From positions 1-36,936 of the forward strand of contig JAGXKG010000004.1 of the NCBI GenBank assembly GCA_018335335.1: DNA of 36,936 nucleotides, written 5' to 3'. The position numbers and the translations under genes are program-made. The notes below the pieces were generated by a model. It did no database searches, had not been told where the DNA came from, and worked only from the letters and a program-made list of their open reading frames with translations. Positions 8,344 through 27,013 of this stretch are shown here, one piece after another (positions within the stretch are counted from its first letter, which is position 1; each line of letters starts with the position of its first letter). Origin of the DNA: Candidatus Thorarchaeota archaeon (GTDB lineage: Archaea > Asgardarchaeota > Thorarchaeia > Thorarchaeales > Thorarchaeaceae).

Positions 8344-10176
8344 GTGAGAAACCGGATTGTTTTTACCCTTCTTTTTGTTGGGATTCTATGCCTGTTGCCC
8401 ATGACTCCGAATAGACCGAGGACTCTTGGCGGTCATGTAATGCAGAATAATGAAAAAGCGCTTGCTCAGACGAGCCATGCTCCCTTCAACATCACAAGCA
8501 ATGATGATTTTGCATCGATGGGGTGGCCTGGCTCTGGAACGGAAGAGGATCCATATGTAATAGGTGATATCCTCATAGAAAACGATAGTCTTTGTATCTA
8601 TGTAACCAACACCACGGCGTACTTCAGAATCGTGGATTCACTTTTCAGGGGCACAGGAAATGGAACGGGCATCTGGTTTCAGAATGTTACTCATGCAACA
8701 ATTTCCAACTGTTCAATGGAGCAGTTGAGTCAAGGTATCGATATCTGGGAATGTAACCGCTCCGAAGTGGTTGATTGTGTGTTTGAAGATATGACCGGTA
8801 CAACTTTTTCTGCTTTCGATGTAGAACATTTCAACTTCACCCAAAACGACATGCAGAATGTTGCATGGGGCGTAAGCTTGGGGTACTCTCTGAATGTATC
8901 AGTAACTCATAACCAAATGAGTGATTGCGAGTGGGCAGGAATTTCTGTCCATTCTGATGGGAATGGCTCCGTGATTGCTCATAATGAAGTCGTTGGAGTA
9001 GATGAGGCGGATCTTGGTTGGGGCGCAATATCTGTAGAGTGGGGTTCTAATTGGGTTGTTGAATCAAATACAATAATGGATTCGACAGCAGGTATTGCTC
9101 TCTCATATTCTGATGATAACACGCTCTCAGGTAATACAATACGAAACGTCTCTTCTCCGATATCACTGACAGATTCCAGTTCAAACACAATCGATTCAAA
9201 CACAATTGAGAACTGTCCTTCAGGGATTTACTCACTTGAGGGAGAAGATAATACCATTTCCAACAATGAGTTTGATTCAATATACTATCAAGGGATACAT
9301 CTGCGGTATTCTGTCTCATGCACAATAACTGACAACTCAATGTATCATGGCATAACCATCACTGGGAACTCTCCCTCCTCGTGGAACCATGATGTCACTG
9401 GAAATACGTTGCCAAACGGAGAGCTGATGTATGTATCGGGAAAGAGCGATTTGCTACTTGATGGCTCCAATGTGTCACAGTTGATAATTGCAAATTCCAA
9501 TAATGTGACTGTTGAGAATGCAAAGCTCATTGATACTGTGAGGGGTGCCGCAATAGCATATTCAGAAGGGTGTTCACTCATTGGATCAACAATCATGAGT
9601 AATTTGAATTCGGGAGTCGAGGTATGGTATTGTCAAGATATTGTGCTTGATCAGAACAACATTACAGACAATACCAAGGGGCTGTATGGACGATACGGAG
9701 GCATTGCATTATGGAACTCAGATGGGGTAAACATAACTCGAAGCGTCATCTACAACAATACTGGTCAGGGTATCCGTATGTTCGACTGTGATGACTGTTT
9801 TGTCTATAATAACTGGATTTCCAACAATACAGGTTATGGTATTTATCTGGGGGAAGGCAAAGATAATACCATATTTGGAAATGCTATTGGGTGGAATGAA
9901 GACGGGAATGCCTACGATGATGGAACAGACAACCAGTGGGATAATGGTGAAGATCTCGGAAACTGGTGGAGCAACTACAATGATACAGAAACCTATGAGA
10001 TAGAGGGAGATGCGGACAGTGAAGACAGATATCCCAATTCTCTCAACGAACTTTTCCTCACGATTCCCATTGGGGAAGAAAAGCCCATTGATTGGGCTGT
10101 TCCCGTGATTCTGTTGGTGGGGGTAGCGGCAGTCGTTATCGTAATAGCAGCTCTCATCAAAAGAAGAGGTAGCTAA
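8344..10176 (+). CDS. NosD-like right-handed beta-helix surface protein, membrane-anchored
   Basis: The 610-residue product starts with a signal peptide (NRIVFTLLFVGILCLLPM). The mature part opens with ITSNDDFASMGWPGSGTEED and then runs as parallel beta-helix repeats to about residue 540. These show up as recurring N-x-I/V-x-x-N, S-x-x-N-T-I and SGNTI-type turns (CASH/PbH1 style), for example NTIMDSTAGIALSYSDDNTL. A closing motif, NGEDLGNWWSNYND, is typical of this group. One transmembrane helix (about 586-604) and a short basic tail (KRRGS) anchor it facing outward. N-glycosylation sequons are frequent. Such domains usually bind or process polysaccharide; no catalytic site is evident. The GTG start has a GGGAGATGA ribosome site seven bases upstream. 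The next gene follows after three bases. Confidence 0.82.
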   Translation: MRNRIVFTLLFVGILCLLPMTPNRPRTLGGHVMQNNEKALAQTSHAPFNITSNDDFASMGWPGSGTEEDPYVIGDILIENDSLCIYVTNTTAYFRIVDSLFRGTGNGTGIWFQNVTHATISNCSMEQLSQGIDIWECNRSEVVDCVFEDMTGTTFSAFDVEHFNFTQNDMQNVAWGVSLGYSLNVSVTHNQMSDCEWAGISVHSDGNGSVIAHNEVVGVDEADLGWGAISVEWGSNWVVESNTIMDSTAGIALSYSDDNTLSGNTIRNVSSPISLTDSSSNTIDSNTIENCPSGIYSLEGEDNTISNNEFDSIYYQGIHLRYSVSCTITDNSMYHGITITGNSPSSWNHDVTGNTLPNGELMYVSGKSDLLLDGSNVSQLIIANSNNVTVENAKLIDTVRGAAIAYSEGCSLIGSTIMSNLNSGVEVWYCQDIVLDQNNITDNTKGLYGRYGGIALWNSDGVNITRSVIYNNTGQGIRMFDCDDCFVYNNWISNNTGYGIYLGEGKDNTIFGNAIGWNEDGNAYDDGTDNQWDNGEDLGNWWSNYNDTETYEIEGDADSEDRYPNSLNELFLTIPIGEEKPIDWAVPVILLVGVAAVVIVIAALIKRRGS

Positions 10177-10179
10177 GAC

Positions 10180-11388
10180 ATGAGTGGCCCCCTCGAATCA
10201 AGGTCCACCATAATTGCTATACTATCAATTGCACATCTGCTAGTCTTTGTTATGCCGGGAGTTATTGCAACTGGACCATTACCACCTGAAATGGATGTTT
10301 CTCAGAACTACGATGAACATGAAGCTATAACTATTGCAGACGAATCTGATTTCACATTATACGGGTTTACAGGAGCTGGAATTGCTGAAAATCCCTATAT
10401 TATTCAAAATCTCAGCATTGTTTCGAATACGTACTGCATTTCTGTTGATTTATCGTATGAAGACCTCCACTTCGAAATAAAGAACTGCTATTTGCGTTCA
10501 ACTGGCGACTATGTTTCCTGTGTGTACATCAGAGATTCAGTCAATTTTTCTTTGAATGGCTTGTATGTTGAAGATGGTACGTACGGGATTAACTTGGAAC
10601 ACTGTCAATTTGCCAATATTACCGCCTGCAGAGTCTTTGACGCAGGTACGAACTACCACATGCGGGGTTGCGAGTACATAGAAATGGAATCCTGTGTATC
10701 CGCAGCTGGGACTACTGGTGTCGACATCTCAAACACTTACATGTCTGAATATGTCAATAATCGTTTCTATTCAAACACTAACCTTGGCATGCTAATCGAG
10801 AACTATTCCCACAATAATACAATTTATGGGAATTATTTCGGCTGGAATGTACCTCTTTTGGAGGCCTTAGAACCTGAATATGTTGAAGATAATGGCTACA
10901 ATAATTCCTGGGATGACGGTGTATCACAAGGGAATTACTACTCCGACTATGATGGGTCTGGCTTGAAGGAAATCCAGGGAGATGCTGATGCTGTAGATCA
11001 TTTCCCGTCCCGGCTTGATGATTCAGTAGCACCAGAAATTGAGCCTGTGAGTGATATTCATCTCGCTGTTGATGAGCAAGACACAACCGTAGTTGCGGAA
11101 GCTTCGGATGAGTTCCCTCTCACCTTTCAATGGTATCTTGATGGTGCTATCCATGATGAGGGATACTGGATGTTCGATGCTGTTGCCACAGAGGTAGAGG
11201 TAACTGAATATGGGTCTCACAATCTTACAATTCTATTCACAGATGCAGCTGGAAATTCTGCTTCTGCCGAAATCGAGATTCAGAAAGATGCTCCATTTCC
11301 TTGGCACATAGGAATAGCCGTAGCTGCTGCAGCTGTGATTTCAGTACTCGTACTCGTCGAGATTCGTGATCGCAGACTGGCCTCCTAA
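10180..11388 (+). CDS. Second beta-helix surface protein with Ig-like domain and membrane anchor
   Basis: The 402-residue product repeats the architecture of its upstream neighbour on a smaller scale. It has a signal peptide (about residues 9-32, IIAILSIAHLLVFVMPGV) and an entry motif ADESDFTLYGFTGAGIAENP. A shorter beta-helix ends in NNSWDDGVSQGNYYSDYDG at about 245-263. An Ig/PKD-like beta-sandwich follows at about 280-370, then a transmembrane helix (about 375-393) and a short charged tail. It begins three bases after the preceding stop, with AGAGGTAGC upstream as ribosome site, so the two are one operon and probably work at the same surface. No enzyme active site is visible, and glycan binding is an inference from the fold. 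Confidence 0.8.
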   Translation: MSGPLESRSTIIAILSIAHLLVFVMPGVIATGPLPPEMDVSQNYDEHEAITIADESDFTLYGFTGAGIAENPYIIQNLSIVSNTYCISVDLSYEDLHFEIKNCYLRSTGDYVSCVYIRDSVNFSLNGLYVEDGTYGINLEHCQFANITACRVFDAGTNYHMRGCEYIEMESCVSAAGTTGVDISNTYMSEYVNNRFYSNTNLGMLIENYSHNNTIYGNYFGWNVPLLEALEPEYVEDNGYNNSWDDGVSQGNYYSDYDGSGLKEIQGDADAVDHFPSRLDDSVAPEIEPVSDIHLAVDEQDTTVVAEASDEFPLTFQWYLDGAIHDEGYWMFDAVATEVEVTEYGSHNLTILFTDAAGNSASAEIEIQKDAPFPWHIGIAVAAAAVISVLVLVEIRDRRLAS

Positions 11389-14850: not shown

Positions 14851-17800
14851 TCAAAGCGTATCCGGAGCGCCCTCATCTTTTTCTGCTATTGCACCGTTTT
14901 GTAATGCATCCATTATGATTGAATAGGCCTTTCGTTCTTCAATGCCGCGTGTTGCCAGACTCTGAACTAGATTTTGCAGAAGAAATCCATCCGACTCGAT
15001 TCCCTCCATCTCCTCCTCCACGAATTGCAATTCGTCTGGGAGATTTGATACATCGATCACTCTATGTTTCTTCAACAGGCTTGCATCCATGATGTCATCA
15101 AACAACCTATCAAACTGTTTCTTGGTTTCAGAATCAAGCACTTCGGATGGTGTCCCTTGGTAGACATCCTTCCAGATAGAAGCGACTTCTTGAGCAAATA
15201 GTTTCATCTTCTCCTTTTGTGAGTCACTCGGCTCTCGCAAAACAATGAATGCGCATATGAGATTCTTAGTGGCTACTATCCGGATTAAATCGGATATGGG
15301 GGTTACATCCCACTCCTCATAGGGAGACGCAAGATCAAATTCCGCTTTGAATTGAGTTATCGCCGATATGAATGCCGAAATCACCGTATCATCAAGACCC
15401 TTCTTGATAATTCGTGAATAAAGCGGAACACCACTCTTTGTGTGAAGGATCAATACTCCGAGCAGATTCTGTGCATCCGCGAAAATTCTCTTGATGCGGT
15501 TTTGCTCACTAATCTCCTCTCGCTTCTTTCTTCTGTAAATCACATAGGCTCCATAGGCAACAACCAGTCCCACTCCTATGATAGAGGGTGGTAATACGTA
15601 TGTCGTGACAAATCGACTCATTATTTCTCCTTCACTCAAGTATGGAGTTAAGGCATACGTCCCAGAACTTTCTTCCATGAAGTGGTTGGGTTTATCCATT
15701 CTGATTTCGAGATGATAGTCTTGGTTATCTGCGGATGGCATTGTGAAGATAGCCACATATATGCCGTTACTTCCTTCAGAGAAAGCCCCTTGTTCCATCA
15801 ATCCGCTTTCTGAGCCGAATATCAGATAGGTGACCGTAGCGTTTGAAACGGGTCTATTCATATCTTTCTCGTAAATCCGAATTCGTAGGGTCTTCTCCCT
15901 TCCTGCAATGTCAGTCAATTCGTCAAGAATTGAAATACTGACTGGAACCTCGTCAACCCTGAACTGAAGCGTTGAGCTACCTGCCACATATCCTGTTTTG
16001 GAGAACGTGAAGATAGCCGAATGAGCGCCAAGACTTGTTGGGGTCAGGTTGATTCTGTACAACCCTGCTCCTTGATAGAACACCTGAATCCAATCGCTAT
16101 CAATTCCCGATACGGAAATATCTGCCTCACTGATACCTGTTCGATTCGCATCAATAAGATAGTAGTAGTCTAAGCTGTATGTATGATTGTATAGAAGATC
16201 GTCTTGTAAAGTTAAGTCCGTGATTCTAGTGTCGATATTCTCTACCGTCAGTTTGAATTCACGTATTTTGGATTCGTGATTCTCTTTGTTCACTTCGATG
16301 TTAATGGTCCAGGATCCTGTGCAACAGGTGTCAAATATGACATTGTATATTTCGCCAGAAGCCGTAATGGCGAAAGAGGGACCATATGGTTGAATCAGGG
16401 CAATACTGACATTAGCTCCTGTGATATTTTGATTCAAATCCGTCCGGGCGTACACCATTTCTAGATTGAATGGTTCAGAGAAGTTCACCGCTGCTGATCC
16501 ACTACTTCGTAGGAATTCGAGATTGGTTGGTATCTCTTTCACAAACAAGCTGAAACCAACTGTGGAATTCTGATAATTGGTCAGACTGGCTCTTAGTAGA
16601 ATCGAATACGACCCAATTTCGCTTGGATCAAGAATGACTTGGTATACTCCATCACCCAGTTCCTTGATATCTGAAACACCCAGCCCTCCAGGAGCATTCA
16701 ACACTGATATAGTGGCATTCTCAAGCCTATTGAGATCCTCATCTACAAATGTTAGGTTTACCGTCTGGGTCAAATCAAAGGCGATTGTGTTTGATGTTGT
16801 TGAAGACGTAAGGCTCGTAGGTATTTCACTTATTGTCAAAGAGAAGGTCGTGAATTGCGTCTTATGATTCGTGAGATTTGCTTTAACGACAATCGTGTAC
16901 GTATCGGCCAAAGTGGATGTTAGAAGAATGCTGTAGTATCCATCATCAAGTTCTTCGGTTGTACCGATACTTATCCCGATTTCTGGTGATACACTGGAAA
17001 CCGTGACGTTGGCACCGAACAAACCGTATCCTGAGCTGTTAACATATCTTACAACCAGGTTGTATGACTGACCAAATCGTATGCTGTCCGCTGTTCCATT
17101 CTGACGAATCAGTGTTGTGCCAACCTCGTCAACATTCAGTGAGAATGAATCATAGCCCGACAGGTAATTCCCCTTCGAGGCTGAGAACGTTAGAAGATAT
17201 GATCCAAAGAGCATTGGTCTGATGATCAGTGAATAATTACCATCACCATAATCGTTAGCAGTAGAGATGTCTAGCTCTGCAGGCGGGTTCTCAGCTGTGA
17301 TAGTGGCCCCTGGCACCCCTGTTCCGAACTCGTCCTTGAAAACAAGCCCAAGCATGAGTTGCTCTTCAACTGAAATCGTCACGCTTGATACATTGAGGGT
17401 CAACGAAGTAGGAATCTCGGTGACGGTGAGCGTGAAGGTTGCGTATTGCACCTTGTGATTCGTGTAATTGGCTTCTATGAGTGTATTATATGTGTCAGTT
17501 GATGTTGCATTCAAAAGAATGGAATAGTATCCTTCTCCCAAGTCTTGAGTAGTGCCAACACCCAACCCGGTTTCGGGTGTCACACTCACAATTGATACCT
17601 GGGCTTCTTCAATACCATAGCCCGAACTATTTACGTAGCGCACAACAAGATTGTATGTCTCTCCAAAAGATAATGTGACTGCTGTCCCATTCTCTCGAGT
17701 CAGACTTGTATCAACAGCATCAACTACCAGTGAAAAGGAATCTACTGCGCTCTTGTAGTTTGGTTTGGAACCAGAGAATGCTAGTAAATACGTACCGAAA

Positions 17801-20721
17801 TAGATAGGGTCGATGACAAGCGAGTAATTGCCATCACCATGGTCCGTCACCGGGGAGATATCAAGCTCGGCTGGCGGACTCTCATCTATGATAGTAGCAC
17901 CAGCGATTCCTGTTCCAGATTCGTCTTCAAATACTAATCCAAGGATAAATTGCTTATTGATGGAAATTGTCTCACTGGTTGCATTGAGTGTTAAGACTGT
18001 GGGGACTTCAGTAACTGTAAGTGTGAATGTTCCATACTGTATTTCATGATTGGTCTTGCTAACTTTGATTACAATTGTGAATGTGGTTGTATTGGATGGA
18101 GTAAAGAGAATGGAATAGTATCCATCTCCTATATCCTGTGTTGAGCCATACTCAAGACCAAGCGAAGGATCTGTGTTTTCTATACTGACGTTGGCTCCTT
18201 CCAGACCAGAATCCGTGGAGTTCTCGTACTGAACTACATACCTGTAGTCGAGCCCATATCTCACGAAACACGCTGTACCATTGACTTGCGCGAGTGTGGT
18301 CCCTGTTTCGTTGATAATAAGTGTGAACAACTCGGATTGAATATGATAGAACTCCTTGGAAGCTTCAAGTGTGATGATATACGTTCCAGCCTGTCGCCCT
18401 GTAATTGCTACTTGATAGTCCCCGGGGCCTTGCGGCACCACAGAACCGATATCCAAACCACCTGTAATCCCACTGTAATCAAATTCGATTGTTGCTTCCT
18501 CAATGCCTGTCCCATTCGAGAATCGATAGGACACATTCAGCGTATACGGTTCATTCATGCCACTTTCTGCAGGAACATCTTGAGGAGCATCTATTTCCAT
18601 CTGAGTTGTGTACGTGGCAACAATGTGGAAGGTACAATTCGTGCTATCATAGAACGGTTTTGATGCTTGCACAAGAACCGTGAAGTTCCCCCCACCTGAT
18701 AGTGAAGTATCGAAATCTCCTTCCCACCAGTTCTTAATTACATTGGGGGCAAACTGGACTGAAGCTCCTGACCAGTTTCCCGTCAATATGGCATCATCAT
18801 CCATCAGATATTCACCGGTGTAACCGTTTTGAAAACGAAGCACGTTGGTGATGGTTTGTCCAACATCGCCTTCTACGATGTCATAGTCGGGGGTTAGAAT
18901 GGCGATATGATAGAGTGAGAATGAAGATGATATGTAGGCTAGCTCAGACCCATTCGACCATATCATCTCGATATGCCATTCGCCTACAGTCGTGTTCGTC
19001 GCACCGAAGGCTACCGAGCTAGAGTTTAGGGATCCCTCTACTGCGGAAGAGCTCGATTCGTACCACCAAACTGAGTTATTGGGAAGATACCATGTTAGAT
19101 TCACTGGGTTCGATAAAACGGGTGTTTCTGATACTGTTCCTATCTCAACAGACGCTCTAGTGTTATTGCCAGGTCTAAACTCGTTTGCTGTGATCCAACC
19201 GGAGGAATCTACGTATTTCTGTACAGTGAGCGATTTTCCATAATTTGGTGATTCAAGCCTAACCTCCCACCACCCTAGGGAGGAAAGGAGTGGAGTTGGA
19301 ATGATCAGTTTGCCTAGGGTTATCGTGCATCCTGTCGTTACGTCGTTAAGGAATGGATTATAGACTGTCACATTTTCCCAGTCATGTGGATACCTGATTG
19401 TCACATTGAAATCTTGGTAATTCCCCTGAGTTCCTACATATGTATGCAGAGTCAGTTCGACGCTTTGGTTATCATAGACGGCGTAACTCACTCCTATCTG
19501 TTCTGCATTTGTTGTCCAGCTTGAATTGAGAAATCGATGTTCAAGCAAACGTGCTTCATAGCTGAATGAGATACTGACATTCGAAGTAAAAGCGGTATCT
19601 AGCTGTTCAGTTGACCAATAGCCGGTCTTGAGTATCGTTGCACTTCCATTTCCTAAGGAGCCGGTAGCGAATGTAGTATCGTTACCAGCGTGAAATTCGA
19701 AATTGACTTCCTCAAAAGAGGGTGGATTCAACCCAGTAAATGAAATATCATCAATCTGCGCTCTTATGTAAATGGTATTGATGAAACCGTTTGATAAGCT
19801 ATCATTATTGTAATCATCATCTGCATTCAATGCCATTGTCTCATCTATTACGATGCCAACAGCAAACTCCAGGGTATTTCCTGGATTCCCAATGTTGACA
19901 GGAACATCACCTGTTTCTATCCATACATTTCTCTGAGTGAGATTTGGAAGGCTCTGACTCCATACAGAAGATCCATTAACGAATACTTTCAGCGAGCAAT
20001 CACCCGGATTAGTAGCCCCACCTGGCCCGTACAATGGCCCCCTCACGTACATGTATCGGAGATTTAGCGTGAAATTCTTGGTATATGGTGCATTGGTAAT
20101 ATTCTGTTTCCAGAGAATCTTCGTTCCTGCTTCGTGAGTAAATTGTCTTCCACTCGGCCCCTCCTTTCTTCCCTGATTTTCGACTATCACAAATCCATCA
20201 TCATCATAACCAGCGATTTGTTCTTGTTCTGTGTTTGTTGTGATTCTATCTGCTCTCCATCCATAAGGATAGTATATTGGTGTATCATTCACTATCGTGT
20301 ATTCTCCCGGAACCCCGTCATCGAATGTTCCATTTACTGCATACCTTCTTTCTAGATTCCAGATATCAGCGGCTGCTTCGCTAGCCAGCCAACCGTTCGT
20401 AGTGTCAATATCTAGGGTAGTATTCGTATTCAAGCTGGTGTCTGTCCTTGCATTTGTGAATCCTGTTGAAATGAAACCTGATTGCTCAACATCTGCAGGA
20501 TTGAGAATTCCTTCCAAGGTTGAATCGGACAAAATGTTGGTTCCTGGAGGCATTGAGATATTTTCGCTATCTTGTCTTGTAATCTTGTCAAATTCTTTAG
20601 CTCTTGACCTTGAAACATTCGCTACATCGTTCATGTGAAATCCGGGATTATTGCTATTCGTCACGTAAAATGACAGAATAACTAGGAATCCTATGACAAC
20701 GAATCTCCGTGATGGGGACAA
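14851..20721 (-). CDS. Giant single-pass surface protein with Ig-like array and longin/roadblock-like cytosolic domain (long paralog)
   Basis: The 1956-residue product has these parts in order: signal/anchor peptide (about 7-25), a beta-rich ectodomain (about 69-705), at least ten Ig-like modules of about 98 residues (about 707-1690), one transmembrane helix (about 1708-1728, IIGVGLVVAYGAYVIY), a basic stop (RRKKREE) and a cytosolic domain (about 1735-1956). The ectodomain is dense in N-x-S/T sequons. Module ends carry V-x-E-(V/I)-(P/G)-T. The cytosolic part reads strand-strand (LLGVLILHTKSGVPLYSRII), helix (DDTVISAFISAITQFKAEF), strands (ISDLIRIVATKNLICAFIVL), helix (KEKMKLFAQEVASIW). This is the pattern of longin or roadblock domains, known partners of small GTPases; no structure search was possible. 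The TTG start follows GAGGAGG by 11 bases, exactly as in the paralog. Likely role: adhesion or sensing coupled to an intracellular GTPase. Confidence 0.75.
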   Translation of the reverse strand: MSPSRRFVVIGFLVILSFYVTNSNNPGFHMNDVANVSRSRAKEFDKITRQDSENISMPPGTNILSDSTLEGILNPADVEQSGFISTGFTNARTDTSLNTNTTLDIDTTNGWLASEAAADIWNLERRYAVNGTFDDGVPGEYTIVNDTPIYYPYGWRADRITTNTEQEQIAGYDDDGFVIVENQGRKEGPSGRQFTHEAGTKILWKQNITNAPYTKNFTLNLRYMYVRGPLYGPGGATNPGDCSLKVFVNGSSVWSQSLPNLTQRNVWIETGDVPVNIGNPGNTLEFAVGIVIDETMALNADDDYNNDSLSNGFINTIYIRAQIDDISFTGLNPPSFEEVNFEFHAGNDTTFATGSLGNGSATILKTGYWSTEQLDTAFTSNVSISFSYEARLLEHRFLNSSWTTNAEQIGVSYAVYDNQSVELTLHTYVGTQGNYQDFNVTIRYPHDWENVTVYNPFLNDVTTGCTITLGKLIIPTPLLSSLGWWEVRLESPNYGKSLTVQKYVDSSGWITANEFRPGNNTRASVEIGTVSETPVLSNPVNLTWYLPNNSVWWYESSSSAVEGSLNSSSVAFGATNTTVGEWHIEMIWSNGSELAYISSSFSLYHIAILTPDYDIVEGDVGQTITNVLRFQNGYTGEYLMDDDAILTGNWSGASVQFAPNVIKNWWEGDFDTSLSGGGNFTVLVQASKPFYDSTNCTFHIVATYTTQMEIDAPQDVPAESGMNEPYTLNVSYRFSNGTGIEEATIEFDYSGITGGLDIGSVVPQGPGDYQVAITGRQAGTYIITLEASKEFYHIQSELFTLIINETGTTLAQVNGTACFVRYGLDYRYVVQYENSTDSGLEGANVSIENTDPSLGLEYGSTQDIGDGYYSILFTPSNTTTFTIVIKVSKTNHEIQYGTFTLTVTEVPTVLTLNATSETISINKQFILGLVFEDESGTGIAGATIIDESPPAELDISPVTDHGDGNYSLVIDPIYFGTYLLAFSGSKPNYKSAVDSFSLVVDAVDTSLTRENGTAVTLSFGETYNLVVRYVNSSGYGIEEAQVSIVSVTPETGLGVGTTQDLGEGYYSILLNATSTDTYNTLIEANYTNHKVQYATFTLTVTEIPTSLTLNVSSVTISVEEQLMLGLVFKDEFGTGVPGATITAENPPAELDISTANDYGDGNYSLIIRPMLFGSYLLTFSASKGNYLSGYDSFSLNVDEVGTTLIRQNGTADSIRFGQSYNLVVRYVNSSGYGLFGANVTVSSVSPEIGISIGTTEELDDGYYSILLTSTLADTYTIVVKANLTNHKTQFTTFSLTISEIPTSLTSSTTSNTIAFDLTQTVNLTFVDEDLNRLENATISVLNAPGGLGVSDIKELGDGVYQVILDPSEIGSYSILLRASLTNYQNSTVGFSLFVKEIPTNLEFLRSSGSAAVNFSEPFNLEMVYARTDLNQNITGANVSIALIQPYGPSFAITASGEIYNVIFDTCCTGSWTINIEVNKENHESKIREFKLTVENIDTRITDLTLQDDLLYNHTYSLDYYYLIDANRTGISEADISVSGIDSDWIQVFYQGAGLYRINLTPTSLGAHSAIFTFSKTGYVAGSSTLQFRVDEVPVSISILDELTDIAGREKTLRIRIYEKDMNRPVSNATVTYLIFGSESGLMEQGAFSEGSNGIYVAIFTMPSADNQDYHLEIRMDKPNHFMEESSGTYALTPYLSEGEIMSRFVTTYVLPPSIIGVGLVVAYGAYVIYRRKKREEISEQNRIKRIFADAQNLLGVLILHTKSGVPLYSRIIKKGLDDTVISAFISAITQFKAEFDLASPYEEWDVTPISDLIRIVATKNLICAFIVLREPSDSQKEKMKLFAQEVASIWKDVYQGTPSEVLDSETKKQFDRLFDDIMDASLLKKHRVIDVSNLPDELQFVEEEMEGIESDGFLLQNLVQSLATRGIEERKAYSIIMDALQNGAIAEKDEGAPDTL
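16820..18305 (-). repeat. Tandem Ig-like module array with two extra A-B double units
   Basis: Within the long giant gene the modules run, in coding order with approximate borders, A (18305-18010), B (18010-17720), A' (17720-17420), B' (17420-17125) and A'' (17125-16820). The double-unit period is about 590 bases. A modules share YNLVVRYVNSSGYG and DDGYYSILL-type segments; B modules share LGLVF-DE-GTG and PPAELDIS. The shorter paralog has only one A module at this place and no B module. Confidence 0.75.
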
Positions 20722-20790
20722 TTCGATATTTTCCTCCTCAGAGCCAAACGATCATATACGAACGGGCTTCAATATATTCGGAATTTGACC

Positions 20791-20814
20791 ATATAGAATT
20801 TTGTCTTGTCTATA
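20791..20814 (-). promoter_or_regulatory. Promoter motif of the long giant gene, shared with its paralog
   Basis: Read on the minus strand: TATAGACAAGACAAAATT followed by a CTATATGG box, about 70 bases before the TTG start. The short paralog has TACAAGACAAATT followed by CTATATAT at the same distance (25755-25776). The conserved ACAAGACAAA block directly upstream of the TATA box is in the place of a BRE or a regulator site. Confidence 0.5.
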
Positions 20815-20986
20815 GTTACTCTTTTTGATGTTTTTACCATTTGTACCATCTATCTCATCTTCACCCCCAGGGGTAGTGAATTGGAAAACAAACATCCAGA
20901 TTTTTTGGAATTCCTGTAAAACTTACTCTGTCAAGAAGCACCAAGTTTGATGCTCTTTTTAGCTATGGCTATGGTAGTCAACCGTT

Positions 20987-23900
20987 CTAAGAGCCTCGAT
21001 ATCTCTCGGGTGCAGCTCCATCCTTTTCGACTATTGCGTCTCTCTGCAAAGCTTCCATTACGACACTGAACGCCTTTCGTTCTTCAATGCCGCAGTTCAC
21101 CAAACTCTGTGCCAGCTTATATAGGTCGAAACTATCTGCATCGATTCCCTCAAGCCCATCTTCAAGGCATTTCAATTCATCAGGAAGCTGTGATTGGTCG
21201 GCTACTTTGTGTGTTTCAAGTAGGGATGCATCAAGTATGTCATCGAACAGTTTGTCGAATTGCCTTTTTGTCGTTGAATCAATAACCTCTGATGGCGTTT
21301 CTCTATAGACATCTTGCCAGACAGAGATTACCTCCCGCGTGAACATCTTCATCTTCTCCTTTTGTGCATCACTTGGTTCGCGCAAGACGATGAATGCACA
21401 TATCAGATTCTCGGTAGCTATTATCCGAATCAAATCAGAAATGGGGGTTACACTCCATTCTTCGTAGGGTTGTGCCAGGTCAAATTCGGACTTGAACTGA
21501 GTAATCGCTGATATGAACGCGGAGATTACCGTATCGTCAAGCCCTTCCTTGATGATTCTGGAGTAGACGGGAATACCGCTGTCTTTGTTGAGAACAAGTA
21601 CTCCAAGCAGGTTGTGAACATCTGTGAAGACCCTCTTGATACGATTCTGCTCGATGATTTCTTCTTGTCTCTTCCTTTTATATAATACATAACCGCCGTA
21701 CCCGACCAACAAACCTGCCAATATAATGGATGATGGAAGCACGTAGGTTGTGATGACACGACTCATAAGAGCCTCTTCGCTTAGATACGGGGTCACTTCA
21801 AATGTTCCAGAATCCTGCTCCAATACGTGGTACGGTTTATCGAATCTGATTTCGATACGGTAGTCTTGATTGTCTGCGGGGGGCATGGTAAATGTAGTCG
21901 AATAGATACCCTCCTCTTCTTCAATGAATGTTCCCTGTTTCCACAATCCACTCTTTGAGCCAAATATGAGATATGTGAGTGTTGCGTTTGATACCGGGGT
22001 GCCTCTGTCGGCTTCATAGACATGGATTCTAAGTGTTTTTTCTTCTCCTGCAATATCAGTTAGTTCATCAAGTACTGAAATCCCCACTTTAACTTCATCA
22101 ACATGGAATTCAAGGAGTGATGTTTGAGCTGCATAACCTGTTTTGGAGAAGGTGAAAGTGGCAGAATGGGTGCCTAGGCTTGTTGGTGTCAAATTGATTT
22201 TGTACAATCCGTTCCCCTGATAGAATACCTCAATCCAGTCATCATCGATTCCTGATGCAGAAACATCTGCTCCTTCGATTCCTGACCGGTTCGAGCTAAC
22301 AAGGTAGCTGTAGCCCAAGCTGTACGTATGGCCATAGAGCAAATCCTCCTGCAATGTCAAGTCTGTAATTCTGGTTTGGATGGCCTGTACTGTCAGTTTG
22401 AATTCACGGGTTTTTGCTTCGTAATTTTCTTTTGTTACTTCGATATTAAGTGTCCATGATCCTATGTCTCCGGTATCAAGGGAAAGGCTATACACATCGC
22501 CAATATGTTCAAGGGTGAACAATAGACCGTTTGGCTGCGCGAGAGTTACACTAACATTCGCCCCGGTGATATTTTGATTCAAATCTGTCCTCGCATAAAT
22601 CATCTCCAAGACGTACGGCTCGGAGTAATTAACGGATGCCGATGCACCATTTTCTAAGAACACCAGAGCAGTTGGAATCTCCTCGACAAGAAGACTGAAA
22701 CCAACTGTTGAATTCTGATAATTCTGCAAACTAGCTCTTAGAAGGATTGAATATGATCCAACCTCAGTTGGATCAAGAATCACCGAATAGTTGCCTTGAC
22801 TTAGATTTTCGATTTGTAGAACTTCGAGCCCTTCGGGCAGATTGAGAACTGATATGGTTGCACTATCGAGGCCATTGCCGTTCTCATCCACAAATGCGAG
22901 ATTCACAGTCTGCGTTAAATCGACGGCGATTGTGCTACTGGAAGGTGAGGCCGTGAGACTTGTAGGAATCTCACTTACAGTGAGGGAGAAGGTCTTATAC
23001 TGCGTCTTATGATTTGTTAGGTTTGCTTTCACCACAATAGTGTATGTATCGGCAGAGAACCCGGTCAAGAGAATGGAATAGACACCATCTTCCAGACTAT
23101 TTGTTTTACCAATTTCAAGACCTGAAGATGGGTCGACATCGACGACAGTCACGTTTGCTCCTTCTAGACCACCCCCAGAGGAGTTCTCGTATTGAACAAC
23201 GTATCTGTAGCTCAAACCTAACTTGACAACATCCCCTGTCCCATTCAGCTGAATGAGATTGGTTCCAGTTTCATCGACTATCAAGGTGAAGTCTTCAGAC
23301 TGAGAATGATGGAACTCCTTCGAGCCCTCAATTGTCACAACATAAGTACCGGACTGGCGTCCCGTCATGGTTACTTGATATTCCCCCGTGGATTGAGGAA
23401 TCGCGGAATAGACCTCCAAACCATCGGTAAGACCTGAATAGTCAACGTTGATGGTTGCTCCTCCAATGCCTGTATCATTTGATAGCGAGTACGATACATT
23501 GACCGTATAATTCTCGTTCAATCCAGTTTCTGCTGGAATATCTGAAGGGGCATCAGTTTCCATTTGGGTTGCATACATGGCGACAACGTAGAAAGAGCAA
23601 TTTACAGCATCATAGAATGGCTTTGATGCTTCAACAAGAACTGTAAAGTTCCCTCCACCTGATACCGATGTATCAAAATCTCCTTCCCACCAATTCTTCA
23701 CCACATTCGGAGTGAACTGAACTGAATCTCCCGACCAGTTTCCTACCAGCGTGGCATCGTCACCCATCAAATACTCTCCTGTATACCCGTTTTGAAAACG
23801 GAGAACATTAGTTACTGTTTGTCCAACATCTGCCTCCACAATGTTGTATTCAGGTGATAGGATGGCAATGTGAATCAATGAGTATGAAGTTGTTGCGTAA

Positions 23901-25687
23901 GCCACCTCTGATCCGTTTATCCACTCGACCTTGATATACCACTGGCCTGCAGTAGTATTAGTTGTGCCAAAGGTTAGGGAGCTGGAGTTCAGGGACCCCT
24001 CTATTCCTGCAGTACTTGATTCAGACCACCAGATTGTACCGTTTGGAAGGTGCCATGTGAGATTCACTGGATTTGATATTACTGGTGTTTCCGTTTCTGT
24101 TCCAAGTTCAACAGATGCCCTAGTAATATTCGCCGGTCTGAACTCAGTAGCCGTTATCCATTGAGAGTCATCAATATGCTTCTGCGAACTAACTGATTTG
24201 GCATAATTCGGTGACTGAAATGTAACTTCCCACCAACCAAGCGAATCAAGAAGGGGAGTTGGAATGACGAGCATACCTTGTGTTACTATACAATCGGAAG
24301 TTACATCATTTAGGAACGGATCGTAGATTGTCTCATTCTCCCAGTCATCTACATACCTGATTGTTACATTGAAGTTTTCATAATCACCCCTGCTTCCCAA
24401 ATATGTGTACAATATTAGTTCTGCACTTTGATTGGGATATACACTGTACGACACTCCCTGTTTTTCTATACTTGTCGTCCAACTCGAGTTGAGAAATCTA
24501 TGCTCCAGTAGATCTACATTGTAGCTGAATGAGATGCTTACGTTTGAAGTAAAGGCAATATCCAACTGTTCAGTTGACCAGTATTCAGACTTCTGAATTG
24601 TCCTACTTGCATTCCCCGAGGATCCCATAACGGGCGTAGTTTCATTACCTGCATGGAACCTGAAATTGACCTCCTCAAAAGATGGGGGGCTGATTCCAGT
24701 GAATGCAATATCATCAAGGTTCGCGGTTATGTACCTAGTATTATCCAGCCCGTCCTCGGAGCCATCTTGGTCATAATCTGACTCTGAATTTAGTTCCAGT
24801 TTATCATCGATTAGAATCCCTATAGCAAATTCCATCGTATCTGTGACGCTAGGGATGTTGATGGCAATATCACCTGTCTCTATCCATACGTCTCTCTCAC
24901 TGACGACTGTAAGTATCTGTTTCCATACGACAGAGCCGTTAATAAACACGTTTAGTGAGCAATTCCCACCAATATTGTACTCACCTCCAGGCCGATCTAT
25001 CGGCCCTCTCACATATCGATATCTGAAATTCAATGTGAAATTCTGAGTGTAGGGTATATTGGTGATATTCTGTTCCCAAAGAATCTTAGTCCCAGCTGTG
25101 TGCTCGTATTTGACTGCACTTCCCTGAAGTGGTGTTCCTCGGTTTTCCACAATGGCAAATCCAGCATCGTTATAGCCTGCAACCTGTGTGGTCTCAATGT
25201 TAGTTGTTGTTCTATTCACTCTCCAGCCATAGGGATAGTAGACTGGAGTGTCATTCTCAACTTCGTACTGTCCAGGCACTCCATCATCAAATGTACCATT
25301 TACAGCATATCTTCTTTCAAGATTCCAGATATCAGCTGAAGCCTTGCTAGCTACCCAGTTGTTCGCAGTATCAATACCGAGTGTAGTGTTTGTATTGAAT
25401 CCGCTATCGGTTCTCGCGTTTGTGAATCCGGTCGAAATGAAACCAGATTGCTCAACATCTGCAGGATTGAGAATCCCTGTAGAACCAGAATCAGAAAGGG
25501 TATTTTCCCGGGTGGGAGTTGGAATGTTCTCGTTATGTTGGATATCTTCCGAATCGAAACTCTGTGGGGTCTCGTTGGTTCTATCAAACCTATTGCTGAG
25601 TGGCCGGCCGAGATTATTGCTATCGAATACAGATAGGGATACAATAACAACTAACCCTATAACAGCGAATTTCTGGAGTTTCTCCAA
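20987..25687 (-). CDS. Giant single-pass surface protein with Ig-like array and longin/roadblock-like cytosolic domain (short paralog)
   Basis: This 1566-residue paralog of the downstream neighbour has the same plan: signal/anchor (about 7-22, FAVIGLVVIVSLSVF), a shared ectodomain (about 71-700) with ILNPADVEQSGFISTGFTNA, Ig-like modules (about 702-1300) in the order X-A-C-D-E-F, a transmembrane helix (about 1316-1336) and a cytosolic domain (about 1342-1566). The two cytosolic domains agree at about three residues in four by eye, with ISAFISAITQFK and ICAFIVLREPSD unchanged. It lacks the four modules B, A', B' and A'' of the longer copy. Its A module begins like A and ends like A'' of the paralog. 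The gene lies 265 bases upstream of the paralog on the same strand. The Rab-like GTPase is divergent, with 237 bases between the start codons. The TTG start has GAGGAGG 11 bases upstream. Confidence 0.75.
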   Translation of the reverse strand: MEKLQKFAVIGLVVIVSLSVFDSNNLGRPLSNRFDRTNETPQSFDSEDIQHNENIPTPTRENTLSDSGSTGILNPADVEQSGFISTGFTNARTDSGFNTNTTLGIDTANNWVASKASADIWNLERRYAVNGTFDDGVPGQYEVENDTPVYYPYGWRVNRTTTNIETTQVAGYNDAGFAIVENRGTPLQGSAVKYEHTAGTKILWEQNITNIPYTQNFTLNFRYRYVRGPIDRPGGEYNIGGNCSLNVFINGSVVWKQILTVVSERDVWIETGDIAINIPSVTDTMEFAIGILIDDKLELNSESDYDQDGSEDGLDNTRYITANLDDIAFTGISPPSFEEVNFRFHAGNETTPVMGSSGNASRTIQKSEYWSTEQLDIAFTSNVSISFSYNVDLLEHRFLNSSWTTSIEKQGVSYSVYPNQSAELILYTYLGSRGDYENFNVTIRYVDDWENETIYDPFLNDVTSDCIVTQGMLVIPTPLLDSLGWWEVTFQSPNYAKSVSSQKHIDDSQWITATEFRPANITRASVELGTETETPVISNPVNLTWHLPNGTIWWSESSTAGIEGSLNSSSLTFGTTNTTAGQWYIKVEWINGSEVAYATTSYSLIHIAILSPEYNIVEADVGQTVTNVLRFQNGYTGEYLMGDDATLVGNWSGDSVQFTPNVVKNWWEGDFDTSVSGGGNFTVLVEASKPFYDAVNCSFYVVAMYATQMETDAPSDIPAETGLNENYTVNVSYSLSNDTGIGGATINVDYSGLTDGLEVYSAIPQSTGEYQVTMTGRQSGTYVVTIEGSKEFHHSQSEDFTLIVDETGTNLIQLNGTGDVVKLGLSYRYVVQYENSSGGGLEGANVTVVDVDPSSGLEIGKTNSLEDGVYSILLTGFSADTYTIVVKANLTNHKTQYKTFSLTVSEIPTSLTASPSSSTIAVDLTQTVNLAFVDENGNGLDSATISVLNLPEGLEVLQIENLSQGNYSVILDPTEVGSYSILLRASLQNYQNSTVGFSLLVEEIPTALVFLENGASASVNYSEPYVLEMIYARTDLNQNITGANVSVTLAQPNGLLFTLEHIGDVYSLSLDTGDIGSWTLNIEVTKENYEAKTREFKLTVQAIQTRITDLTLQEDLLYGHTYSLGYSYLVSSNRSGIEGADVSASGIDDDWIEVFYQGNGLYKINLTPTSLGTHSATFTFSKTGYAAQTSLLEFHVDEVKVGISVLDELTDIAGEEKTLRIHVYEADRGTPVSNATLTYLIFGSKSGLWKQGTFIEEEEGIYSTTFTMPPADNQDYRIEIRFDKPYHVLEQDSGTFEVTPYLSEEALMSRVITTYVLPSSIILAGLLVGYGGYVLYKRKRQEEIIEQNRIKRVFTDVHNLLGVLVLNKDSGIPVYSRIIKEGLDDTVISAFISAITQFKSEFDLAQPYEEWSVTPISDLIRIIATENLICAFIVLREPSDAQKEKMKMFTREVISVWQDVYRETPSEVIDSTTKRQFDKLFDDILDASLLETHKVADQSQLPDELKCLEDGLEGIDADSFDLYKLAQSLVNCGIEERKAFSVVMEALQRDAIVEKDGAAPERYRGS

Positions 25688-25754
25688 TTCAGTGTTGTCC
25701 TCCTCGGGGCGAACTAACGATCTCAGAACCTGATTGAATTTGACATGAAACTAA

Positions 25755-25776
25755 ATATATAGTAATTTGTCTTGTA
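25755..25776 (-). promoter_or_regulatory. Promoter motif of the short giant gene, shared with its paralog
   Basis: Read on the minus strand: TACAAGACAAATT followed by ACTATATAT, with the TATA box about 70 bases before the TTG at 25687. Both the block and its distance match the promoter of the long paralog (20791-20814). It lies in the divergent gap shared with the GTPase gene. Confidence 0.5.
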
Positions 25777-25864
25777 TACTTTGTCGGTTTTTCGATTTCT
25801 GCTATTGAACATACAGCATGGCATCGCTTTTCACCAAATTGAACGACCACAAACAGGATACTCC

Positions 25865-25870
25865 TATATA
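25865..25870 (+). promoter_or_regulatory. TATA box of the Rab-like GTPase gene
   Basis: TATATA within CTCCTATATACATT lies about 57 bases upstream of the ATG at 25925. It would give a leader of roughly 30 bases carrying the GGAGGAG ribosome site. Confidence 0.5.
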
Positions 25871-25924
25871 CATTCTAAGCAAAACATTGACCGCGCCGCC
25901 TTTCGCAATGGAGGAGATAAACAA

Positions 25925-27013
25925 ATGACAGAAGGCATCCGCAGACAGTTCAAAATATGCCTGATAGGAGACGGATATGTGGGGAAGACATCGATAAGAC
26001 GGCAGTATTTGGGCTCTGGTTTCAAAGCGAGTTACCTTCCAACTCTGGGTGTAGATTTTGCGCATACAACTGTAACCTACGATGATACGAAAACACAGCT
26101 TGTGATCTGGGATATTGCCGGCCAACCGCTGTTCAAGAGTCTGCGCAAGAGGTATTATCAGGGGTGTAGCGGTATCATTCTCGTATATTCCGTTGTAGAT
26201 CGAGCAACTTTTGATAATGCTTCGAAGTGGCTTGTTGAGGCTCATGGCTTTATGGGCGAGTTACCTCCTGTCATTGTGGCGGCGAATAAAATCGACCTCC
26301 GAAGTACCCGACCAGAACGGGAGATTGTGTCTCCTGCAGAGGGTCAGGCATTTACGCAGAAATTCAGTGAGGAGTTGGACACGGAAGCAGTATTCATCGA
26401 GACTTCGGCTTTGACGGGCGAGAATATTGACAAAGCTTTCATGAAACTGACTGAATTGATGTTTCAAGAAACCGAAAAGGTTCGTAGAGGGGTATCAGAG
26501 GAAGCAGCTCCATCTGAGAAAGCAGAAACGCCTTCTGCAGAATACGCCGCCACTCAAGACAGTGGTACTGCAGTCTCATCATCTCAAGACACTACATCGA
26601 CCCAGCTTCCTGATTTGGACCCGGTCACCTCCTTGGTCAAGGATTCTGAAGTTCTAAAACAAGACGAGATTGGAAAACAGATGGCTGAGTTACTTGAGCT
26701 TCGCAAAGAGCTCAGAAATGCGGAAGATGAACTCGCGAATGTTGTTTCAGATTATGAGACCAAGCTTCTTACCCTTAGAAACACGATTCATGTGAAGAAG
26801 ATGATGTATGAACATCTTAAGCGTCAAATCAGTGAGACAAGACAGGAATGGGCCGAATCGTATGATGAATACATGGAGACTGAGGAGAAGAAAAAGAAAG
26901 CGATTGCAGAACGAAGTCAACAAATTGAGGATTTGCGAAAGGATATTGAGAAGCTTGGAAAACGAATACGCACTCGCGTTAGTGATTTAAACCTAAAGAA
27001 GTTGGCAGAGTGA
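25925..27013 (+). CDS. Rab/Ras-like small GTPase with C-terminal coiled-coil extension
   Basis: The 362-residue product has a full G domain (about residues 8-185). Its motifs are P-loop GDGYVGKTS (15-23), switch I Thr40 in LPTLGVDF, WDIAGQ (62-67, with the Gln that Ras-type enzymes use for hydrolysis), NKID (121-124) and ETSA (159-162). The YYQG after switch II is Rab-like. A Ser/Thr/Glu/Ala-rich linker (about 186-245) leads to a highly charged coiled coil (about 248-350). The C-terminus (LNLKKLAE) has no prenylation cysteine, so membrane attachment must be indirect. The frame is open further upstream (to 25772), but ATG 25925 has GGAGGAG eight bases before it and the conserved domain starts right after. 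It is divergent from the giant surface-protein genes, whose cytosolic domains resemble GTPase partners. Confidence 0.85.
   Translation: MTEGIRRQFKICLIGDGYVGKTSIRRQYLGSGFKASYLPTLGVDFAHTTVTYDDTKTQLVIWDIAGQPLFKSLRKRYYQGCSGIILVYSVVDRATFDNASKWLVEAHGFMGELPPVIVAANKIDLRSTRPEREIVSPAEGQAFTQKFSEELDTEAVFIETSALTGENIDKAFMKLTELMFQETEKVRRGVSEEAAPSEKAETPSAEYAATQDSGTAVSSSQDTTSTQLPDLDPVTSLVKDSEVLKQDEIGKQMAELLELRKELRNAEDELANVVSDYETKLLTLRNTIHVKKMMYEHLKRQISETRQEWAESYDEYMETEEKKKKAIAERSQQIEDLRKDIEKLGKRIRTRVSDLNLKKLAE

Follow-up and report, generated by a model that had tools for sequence, protein, structure and literature searches.

The two giant genes in the 36,936-nucleotide stretch of Candidatus Thorarchaeota DNA that we analyzed (hereafter, the window) encode single-pass surface proteins of a class spread across the Asgard phylum; their cytosolic tail is probably a longin fold followed by a winged helix, as judged from a predicted structure. 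We lean slightly towards the view that this tail docks small GTPases and that contact outside the cell changes the GTPase locally. The original prediction had read the giants and the neighboring Rab-like GTPase gene as a possible receptor signaling through a dedicated GTPase. This reading was not supported for the window pair but gained partial support elsewhere, where a giant with a homologous tail lies beside a roadblock-Rab GTPase and where a tail-like domain is fused to GTPases. It is plausible that Asgard archaea have a receptor/GTPase module, of which the window is a weak example.

Both giant genes were present as predicted, as adjacent paralogous open reading frames in tandem (Table 1), and each starts with TTG with a GAGGAGG ribosome-binding site closely upstream. 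Dozens of genomes carry homologues with the architecture of the giants, and we therefore regard the giants as real genes rather than chance open reading frames. The GTPase open reading frame was listed from a TTG at 25772; the likelier start is the ATG at 25925, which is preceded by GGAGG. With this start, the gap to giant 2 is exactly 237 bases, and the divergent arrangement described originally holds. Giant 1 differs from giant 2 mainly by approximately 390 additional amino acids of Ig-like repeats. The cytosolic domains had been called nearly identical, which overstates their similarity: they are 70-71% identical, no closer than much of the ectodomain (52-80% identical, block by block). A third giant of the same genome (G000:C3:53518-54165, locus L111; 1173 aa) has a tail that is 40% identical and lies in another conserved neighborhood. 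Further, two more predicted surface proteins, with parallel-beta-helix-like repeats discerned by eye, are encoded at 8344-10176 and 10180-11388 of the window, and this pair is also kept in the sister genome G001 (L115).

Table 1. Features of the giant genes and the GTPase gene in the window.
Feature	Position	Strand	Description and basis
Giant gene 1	14851..20721	-	1956 aa, single-pass surface protein; ORF and RBS, Pfam Ig-like matches
Giant 1 head, aa 64-598	18928..20532	-	Predicted beta jelly-roll, glycan-binding-module-like; AF2, Foldseek
Giant 1 Ig-like stalk, aa 599-1700	15622..18927	-	Invasin_D3, CarboxypepD_reg, Big_1
Giant 1 transmembrane segment, aa 1704-1723	15553..15612	-	Hydropathy
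Giant 1 cytosolic longin domain (predicted), ~aa 1752-1883	15073..15468	-	AF2 model, Foldseek PDB, family alignment A1
Giant 1 C-terminal winged-helix-like part, ~aa 1901-1948	14878..15021	-	AF2; weak MCM_C winged-helix match
Giant gene 2	20987..25687	-	1566-aa paralogue of giant 1, like architecture, fewer Ig-like repeats
Giant 2 cytosolic longin/winged-helix tail (predicted)	20990..21685	-	70-71% identity to giant 1 tail
Giant 2 transmembrane segment, aa 1310-1330	21698-21760	-	
Intergenic region between giant 2 and GTPase	25688..25924	.	237 bases, divergent
Ras/Rab-family GTPase	25925..27013	+	362 aa; Pfam Ras, TIGR00231 small_GTP; divergent from giant 2
GTPase C-terminal coiled-coil extension	~26627-26989	+	

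The predicted single-pass topology with an Ig-like ectodomain was confirmed by one transmembrane segment before each tail and by matches of the ectodomain to the Pfam families Invasin_D3, CarboxypepD_reg, Big_1 and filamin-type Ig-like families. Each giant ectodomain contains dozens of N-glycosylation sequons. The head of approximately 535 aa is conserved among 40 aligned Thorarchaeal sequences, and its AF2 model is all beta (pLDDT 92). In Foldseek searches this model resembled modules that bind hyaluronan or xyloglucan, among them the hyaluronan-binding one from a streptococcal lyase (TM-score 0.66, normalized to the target); the resemblance to Eph receptor ectodomains was looser. The predicted fold suggests that the head may bind a ligand. 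The evidence thus supports a layout like that of a receptor or adhesin, with a head resembling glycan-binding modules. The Ig-like repeat stalk is shared with archaeal and bacterial adhesins of the Invasin/Big type, from which the giants differ by their large conserved cytosolic domain.

This cytosolic tail, approximately 230 aa long, follows the single transmembrane helix. A model built by AF2 on an alignment of 45 tails (A2) shows the order H-EE-H-EEE-H-H and then a winged-helix-like C-terminal part (pLDDT 79, pTM 0.78), with the elements E26-33, E39-44, H51-68, E79-81, E86-90, E94-100, H106-122 and H137-151. The model has the beta-beta-alpha-beta-beta-beta-alpha-alpha topology of longins. 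It departs from the roadblock/LC7 layout by a second C-terminal helix, and from that of longin SNAREs in that the transmembrane segment precedes the longin and a winged helix lies behind it. When the model was compared with the PDB using Foldseek, the best 50 matches were all longin/roadblock proteins, or complexes containing them, from AP sigma/mu, zeta-COP, TRAPP, Mon1-Ccz1, MglB, Gtr1 and Asgard roadblocks. The probabilities were mostly near 1, E-values were approximately 1e-3 to 1e-2 and TM-scores were moderate. AP-2 sigma (E = 1.2e-3, the best), zeta-COP and AP-3 sigma ranked at the top, and roadblock GTPase regulators matched the fold about as well as AP sigma and zeta-COP. The predicted structure therefore bears out the original assignment of the tail to the longin/roadblock kind, while sequence profiles gave no confirmation. 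No longin-family Pfam profile scored over its cut-off, Robl_LC7 did not match the tail, and searches of NCBIfam and Pfam gave no useful name; Fuz_longin_1 weakly matched 3 of 66 tail-family members (best E = 0.0056). A profile search against PDB sequences returned chance matches only, those of A4 being designed helical proteins.

The tail domain is widespread. Matches to its profile were found in 182 of 228 Asgard genomes, and a broader profile retrieved 152 proteins, 108 of which reach 600 aa or more and carry a transmembrane segment directly before the domain; soluble proteins with the domain also occur. The longest open frame (L312:3-14702, 4900 aa) has a transmembrane segment and a predicted longin tail near its C-terminus. 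Among other architectures, L319:9023-11182 has nine predicted transmembrane segments with a longin-like domain at the end, and L258:3727-5895 is soluble (723 aa); inspection by eye suggests that a zinc finger at its N-terminus and several winged helices precede the longin-like domain. In Lokiarchaeota, one chain (L179:1379-3235) carries a RagA-like GTPase, a tail-like domain and a Rab-like GTPase, and its middle domain, used as a query, retrieved giants throughout the phylum. This fusion, a single instance, is the most direct link of the tail to GTPases, as read from sequence comparison.

The GTPase of the window is a member of the Ras superfamily (Pfam Ras E = 1.9e-40; match to TIGR00231) with all of the motifs G1-G5 (GDGYVGKTS, TLGVDF, DIAGQ, NKID and ETSAL). 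It has neither the C-terminal prenylation cysteine of eukaryotic Rabs nor a CAAX-type end, but ends in a coiled coil (...LNLKKLAE). Orthologues bearing the coiled coil were found in 25 of 47 genomes of the family. The notion that this GTPase is the dedicated partner of both giants in the source genome is unlikely to be right. It draws on the divergent arrangement over 237 bases, which is kept in G001, the second genome of the genus, on a loose convergent arrangement in G028 (2.2 kb apart) and on a co-occurrence across the 47 genomes (23 with both, 2 with the GTPase only, 13 with the giant only and 9 with neither). This association is weak, and kinship confounds it: Fisher's p was 0.014 over all genomes, uncorrected for kinship, and 0.14 in near-complete genomes. 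Outside the genus, no giant was present in the retrieved stretches (311,801 bases) at 20 of 21 orthologue loci, and the lone exception fits chance (0.4 expected from density). Within 5 kb of Thorarchaeal giants (300,921 bases), there were two GTPases, those of the window and of G028, against 1.9 expected. Instead, a UPF0047 gene recurs beside GTPase orthologues (8 of 23 loci), and Thorarchaeal giants have two recurring gene contexts, both lacking a GTPase. Further, G012 and G021 possess the GTPase without a window-type giant, and G004 and G016 the reverse. The neighborhood is thus kept in the same genus only, apart from the loose G028 case, and, by the refutation criterion set with the original prediction, dedication to these giants is not supported. 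The window GTPase is more likely a recent, genus-specific neighbor, and the true partner of the giants may be encoded elsewhere.

In Lokiarchaeota-type genomes, by contrast with the window pair, a giant-GTPase neighborhood is kept across genera and families. Here, giants of type d0, which have a homologous tail, adjoin a GTPase of 358-391 aa. Its C-terminal half is Ras/Rab, and we read the N-terminal half as roadblock, Robl_LC7 scoring over the Pfam cut-off in the G104 orthologue (E = 2.1e-5). The two genes occur together, with the GTPase within approximately 3 kb of the giant's end, in nine genomes of five genera and two families (g14, g32, g38 and g29 in family f2; g34 in family f18). Four of these loci (L240, L245, L320 and L318) were available as sequence; for G207, G206, G201, G083 and G104, placement came from search coordinates, and the lengths of the open frames were used to estimate where the genes start. 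At the f18 locus (L318:295-11333), the roadblock-Rab GTPase, an ATP-grasp_5 protein and a 3031-aa giant with the predicted longin tail follow one another on the same strand in an operon-like order, 75 and 94 bases apart, and of the genes in this stretch only these three are common to the f18 and f2 loci. In the remaining genomes with both genes, these lie on separate contigs, mostly truncated. The second copies that G207 and G104 carry show no linkage, G186 and G192 keep the giant and the ATP-grasp gene while missing the GTPase, and seven paralogous roadblock-GTPases in the same genome set have no listed giant close by. Because the trio includes a metabolic-looking ATP-grasp gene, the linkage could reflect gene order passed down from an ancestor rather than a shared function. 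A total of 11 GTPases lay no more than 5 kb from giants in Lokiarchaeota-type genomes, where 5-7 would be expected; we did not use this density as evidence because the independent contexts are few.

We propose the following working for the class. Its members combine a signal peptide, a jelly-roll head (in Thorarchaeota), an Ig-like stalk, one transmembrane helix, and a predicted longin and winged helix. The outer part would contact neighboring cells, polymers or surfaces, and a signal would pass through the single transmembrane helix. The longin tail would serve as a membrane-fixed docking platform that holds or regulates small GTPases, so that a GTPase would be recruited, or its nucleotide state altered, locally at the membrane when the outer part binds or clusters. 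The architecture, the predicted fold, the phylum-wide spread, the one fusion and the Lokiarchaeota-type neighborhood support this proposal, whereas we infer the ligand, dimerization, GTPase binding, direction of regulation and signaling. Weighing against it are the modest Foldseek E-values, the lack of a longin-family sequence match at cut-off, the single occurrence of the fusion and the chance-level number of GTPases near Thorarchaeal giants. Further, longin folds also work without GTPases, as in AP sigma and SNAREs.

We weighed two other accounts of the tail. The giants could be structural adhesins or envelope glycoproteins, in which the longin tail would serve only to dimerize them or to anchor them to other components of the cytosol, with no part for a GTPase. 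The invasin-type Ig-like repeats, the abundant sequons, the glycan-binding-module-like head and the absence of a nearby GTPase from most Thorarchaeal giants would all fit, as would the many protruding surface proteins, without an ordered S-layer, of Lokiarchaeal cells (PMC9834061). We nevertheless consider this account rather unlikely, since the tail is conserved phylum-wide with residues that are invariant across the family alignment, beyond the needs of an anchor, and since the roadblock-Rab linkage in other families and the L179 fusion point to GTPases. It is more improbable still that the tail is a sorting or coat-adaptor element, resembling AP sigma or zeta-COP, that sends giants into buds or protrusions of the membrane. 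Proteins of this type head the list of structural matches, and Asgard proteins that join longin, adaptin-appendage and Vps28-C domains have been described, multidomain Asgard longin proteins having been linked to ESCRT (PMC10936438); however, roadblock GTPase regulators fit the fold about equally well, and casual inspection of the giants' neighborhoods showed no adaptin-type large subunit. A wider form of the GTPase-docking reading is a tentative possibility that we rate short of even: an Asgard-own receptor class of giant adhesion proteins, reaching approximately 4,900 aa, whose longin-fold tail would pass signals straight to Ras-superfamily GTPases, with a dedicated adjacent roadblock-Rab GTPase in Lokiarchaeota-type lineages. 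If true, membrane signaling through GTPases in eukaryotes may have had a precursor in this class.

On its predicted structure, the tail shares its fold with longin/roadblock platforms (TRAPP longins, Mon1-Ccz1, MglB and Ragulator), and the fusion and gene neighborhood suggest a similar tie to Ras-superfamily GTPases. It differs from them in its place on a giant single-pass surface protein, in the winged helix behind it and in lacking sequence-level membership. In the SRP receptor, the longin of SR-alpha works with the SR-beta GTPase; a longin-type domain thus acts with a small GTPase at the membrane, as proposed for the giants, although the SRP receptor has no ectodomain and another function. 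NPRL2 (GATOR1) has a longin and then a winged helix, the order predicted for the giants' tail. An arginine-finger GAP of the NPRL2 type was rejected, as no arginine reached at least 90% conservation among the 45 tails. NPRL2-like longins are reported to be enriched in Lokiarchaeum ossiferum (PMC9834061). Further, two reports describe Asgard longins and roadblocks, some fused to GTPases (PMC10933270; PMC4917890), which share phylum and fold class with the giants' tail. One of them states that small GTPase genes of MK-D1 are generally not in operons with RB, longin or TRAPPC3 genes (PMC10933270); the other, a 2016 review, names operon analysis for GTPase targets as an outstanding question (PMC4917890). 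In the passages of open-access literature searched, with subscription papers mostly outside that scope, neither a longin-tailed, single-pass giant of the cell surface nor the roadblock-Rab linkage was described. Asgard archaea are rich in small GTPases and longin domains. For finding their targets, the surface class and the conserved trio offer concrete candidate pairs, which would tie GTPase switches to the cell surface in a pre-eukaryotic setting.

Other genes also recur beside giants. The order giant, RsmB/F methyltransferase, d7, d8 and Arf-like GTPase was found at six loci in four Lokiarchaeota-type genera (L222, L224, L232, L233, L243 and L244; the methyltransferase is absent in L222). 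Although conserved, this group was not counted as a module, given the housekeeping gene in between. In genus g29 (L221, L239 and L269), the next gene after the giant, 60-183 bases downstream on the same strand, encodes a Ras-type GTPase. Single-domain MglB-like roadblock genes (L320:12949-13308 and L235:6406-6777) are located one gene from the giant's tail end, with Robl_LC7 matches at similar places in G201:C50 and G206:C63. Near Thorarchaeal giants, a methyltransferase of the PEMT/ICMT type recurs (cluster c3, 10 loci, with L117:5284-5910 and its homologues). In eukaryotes, prenylated GTPases are substrates of ICMT; for this methyltransferase, PEMT scored better.
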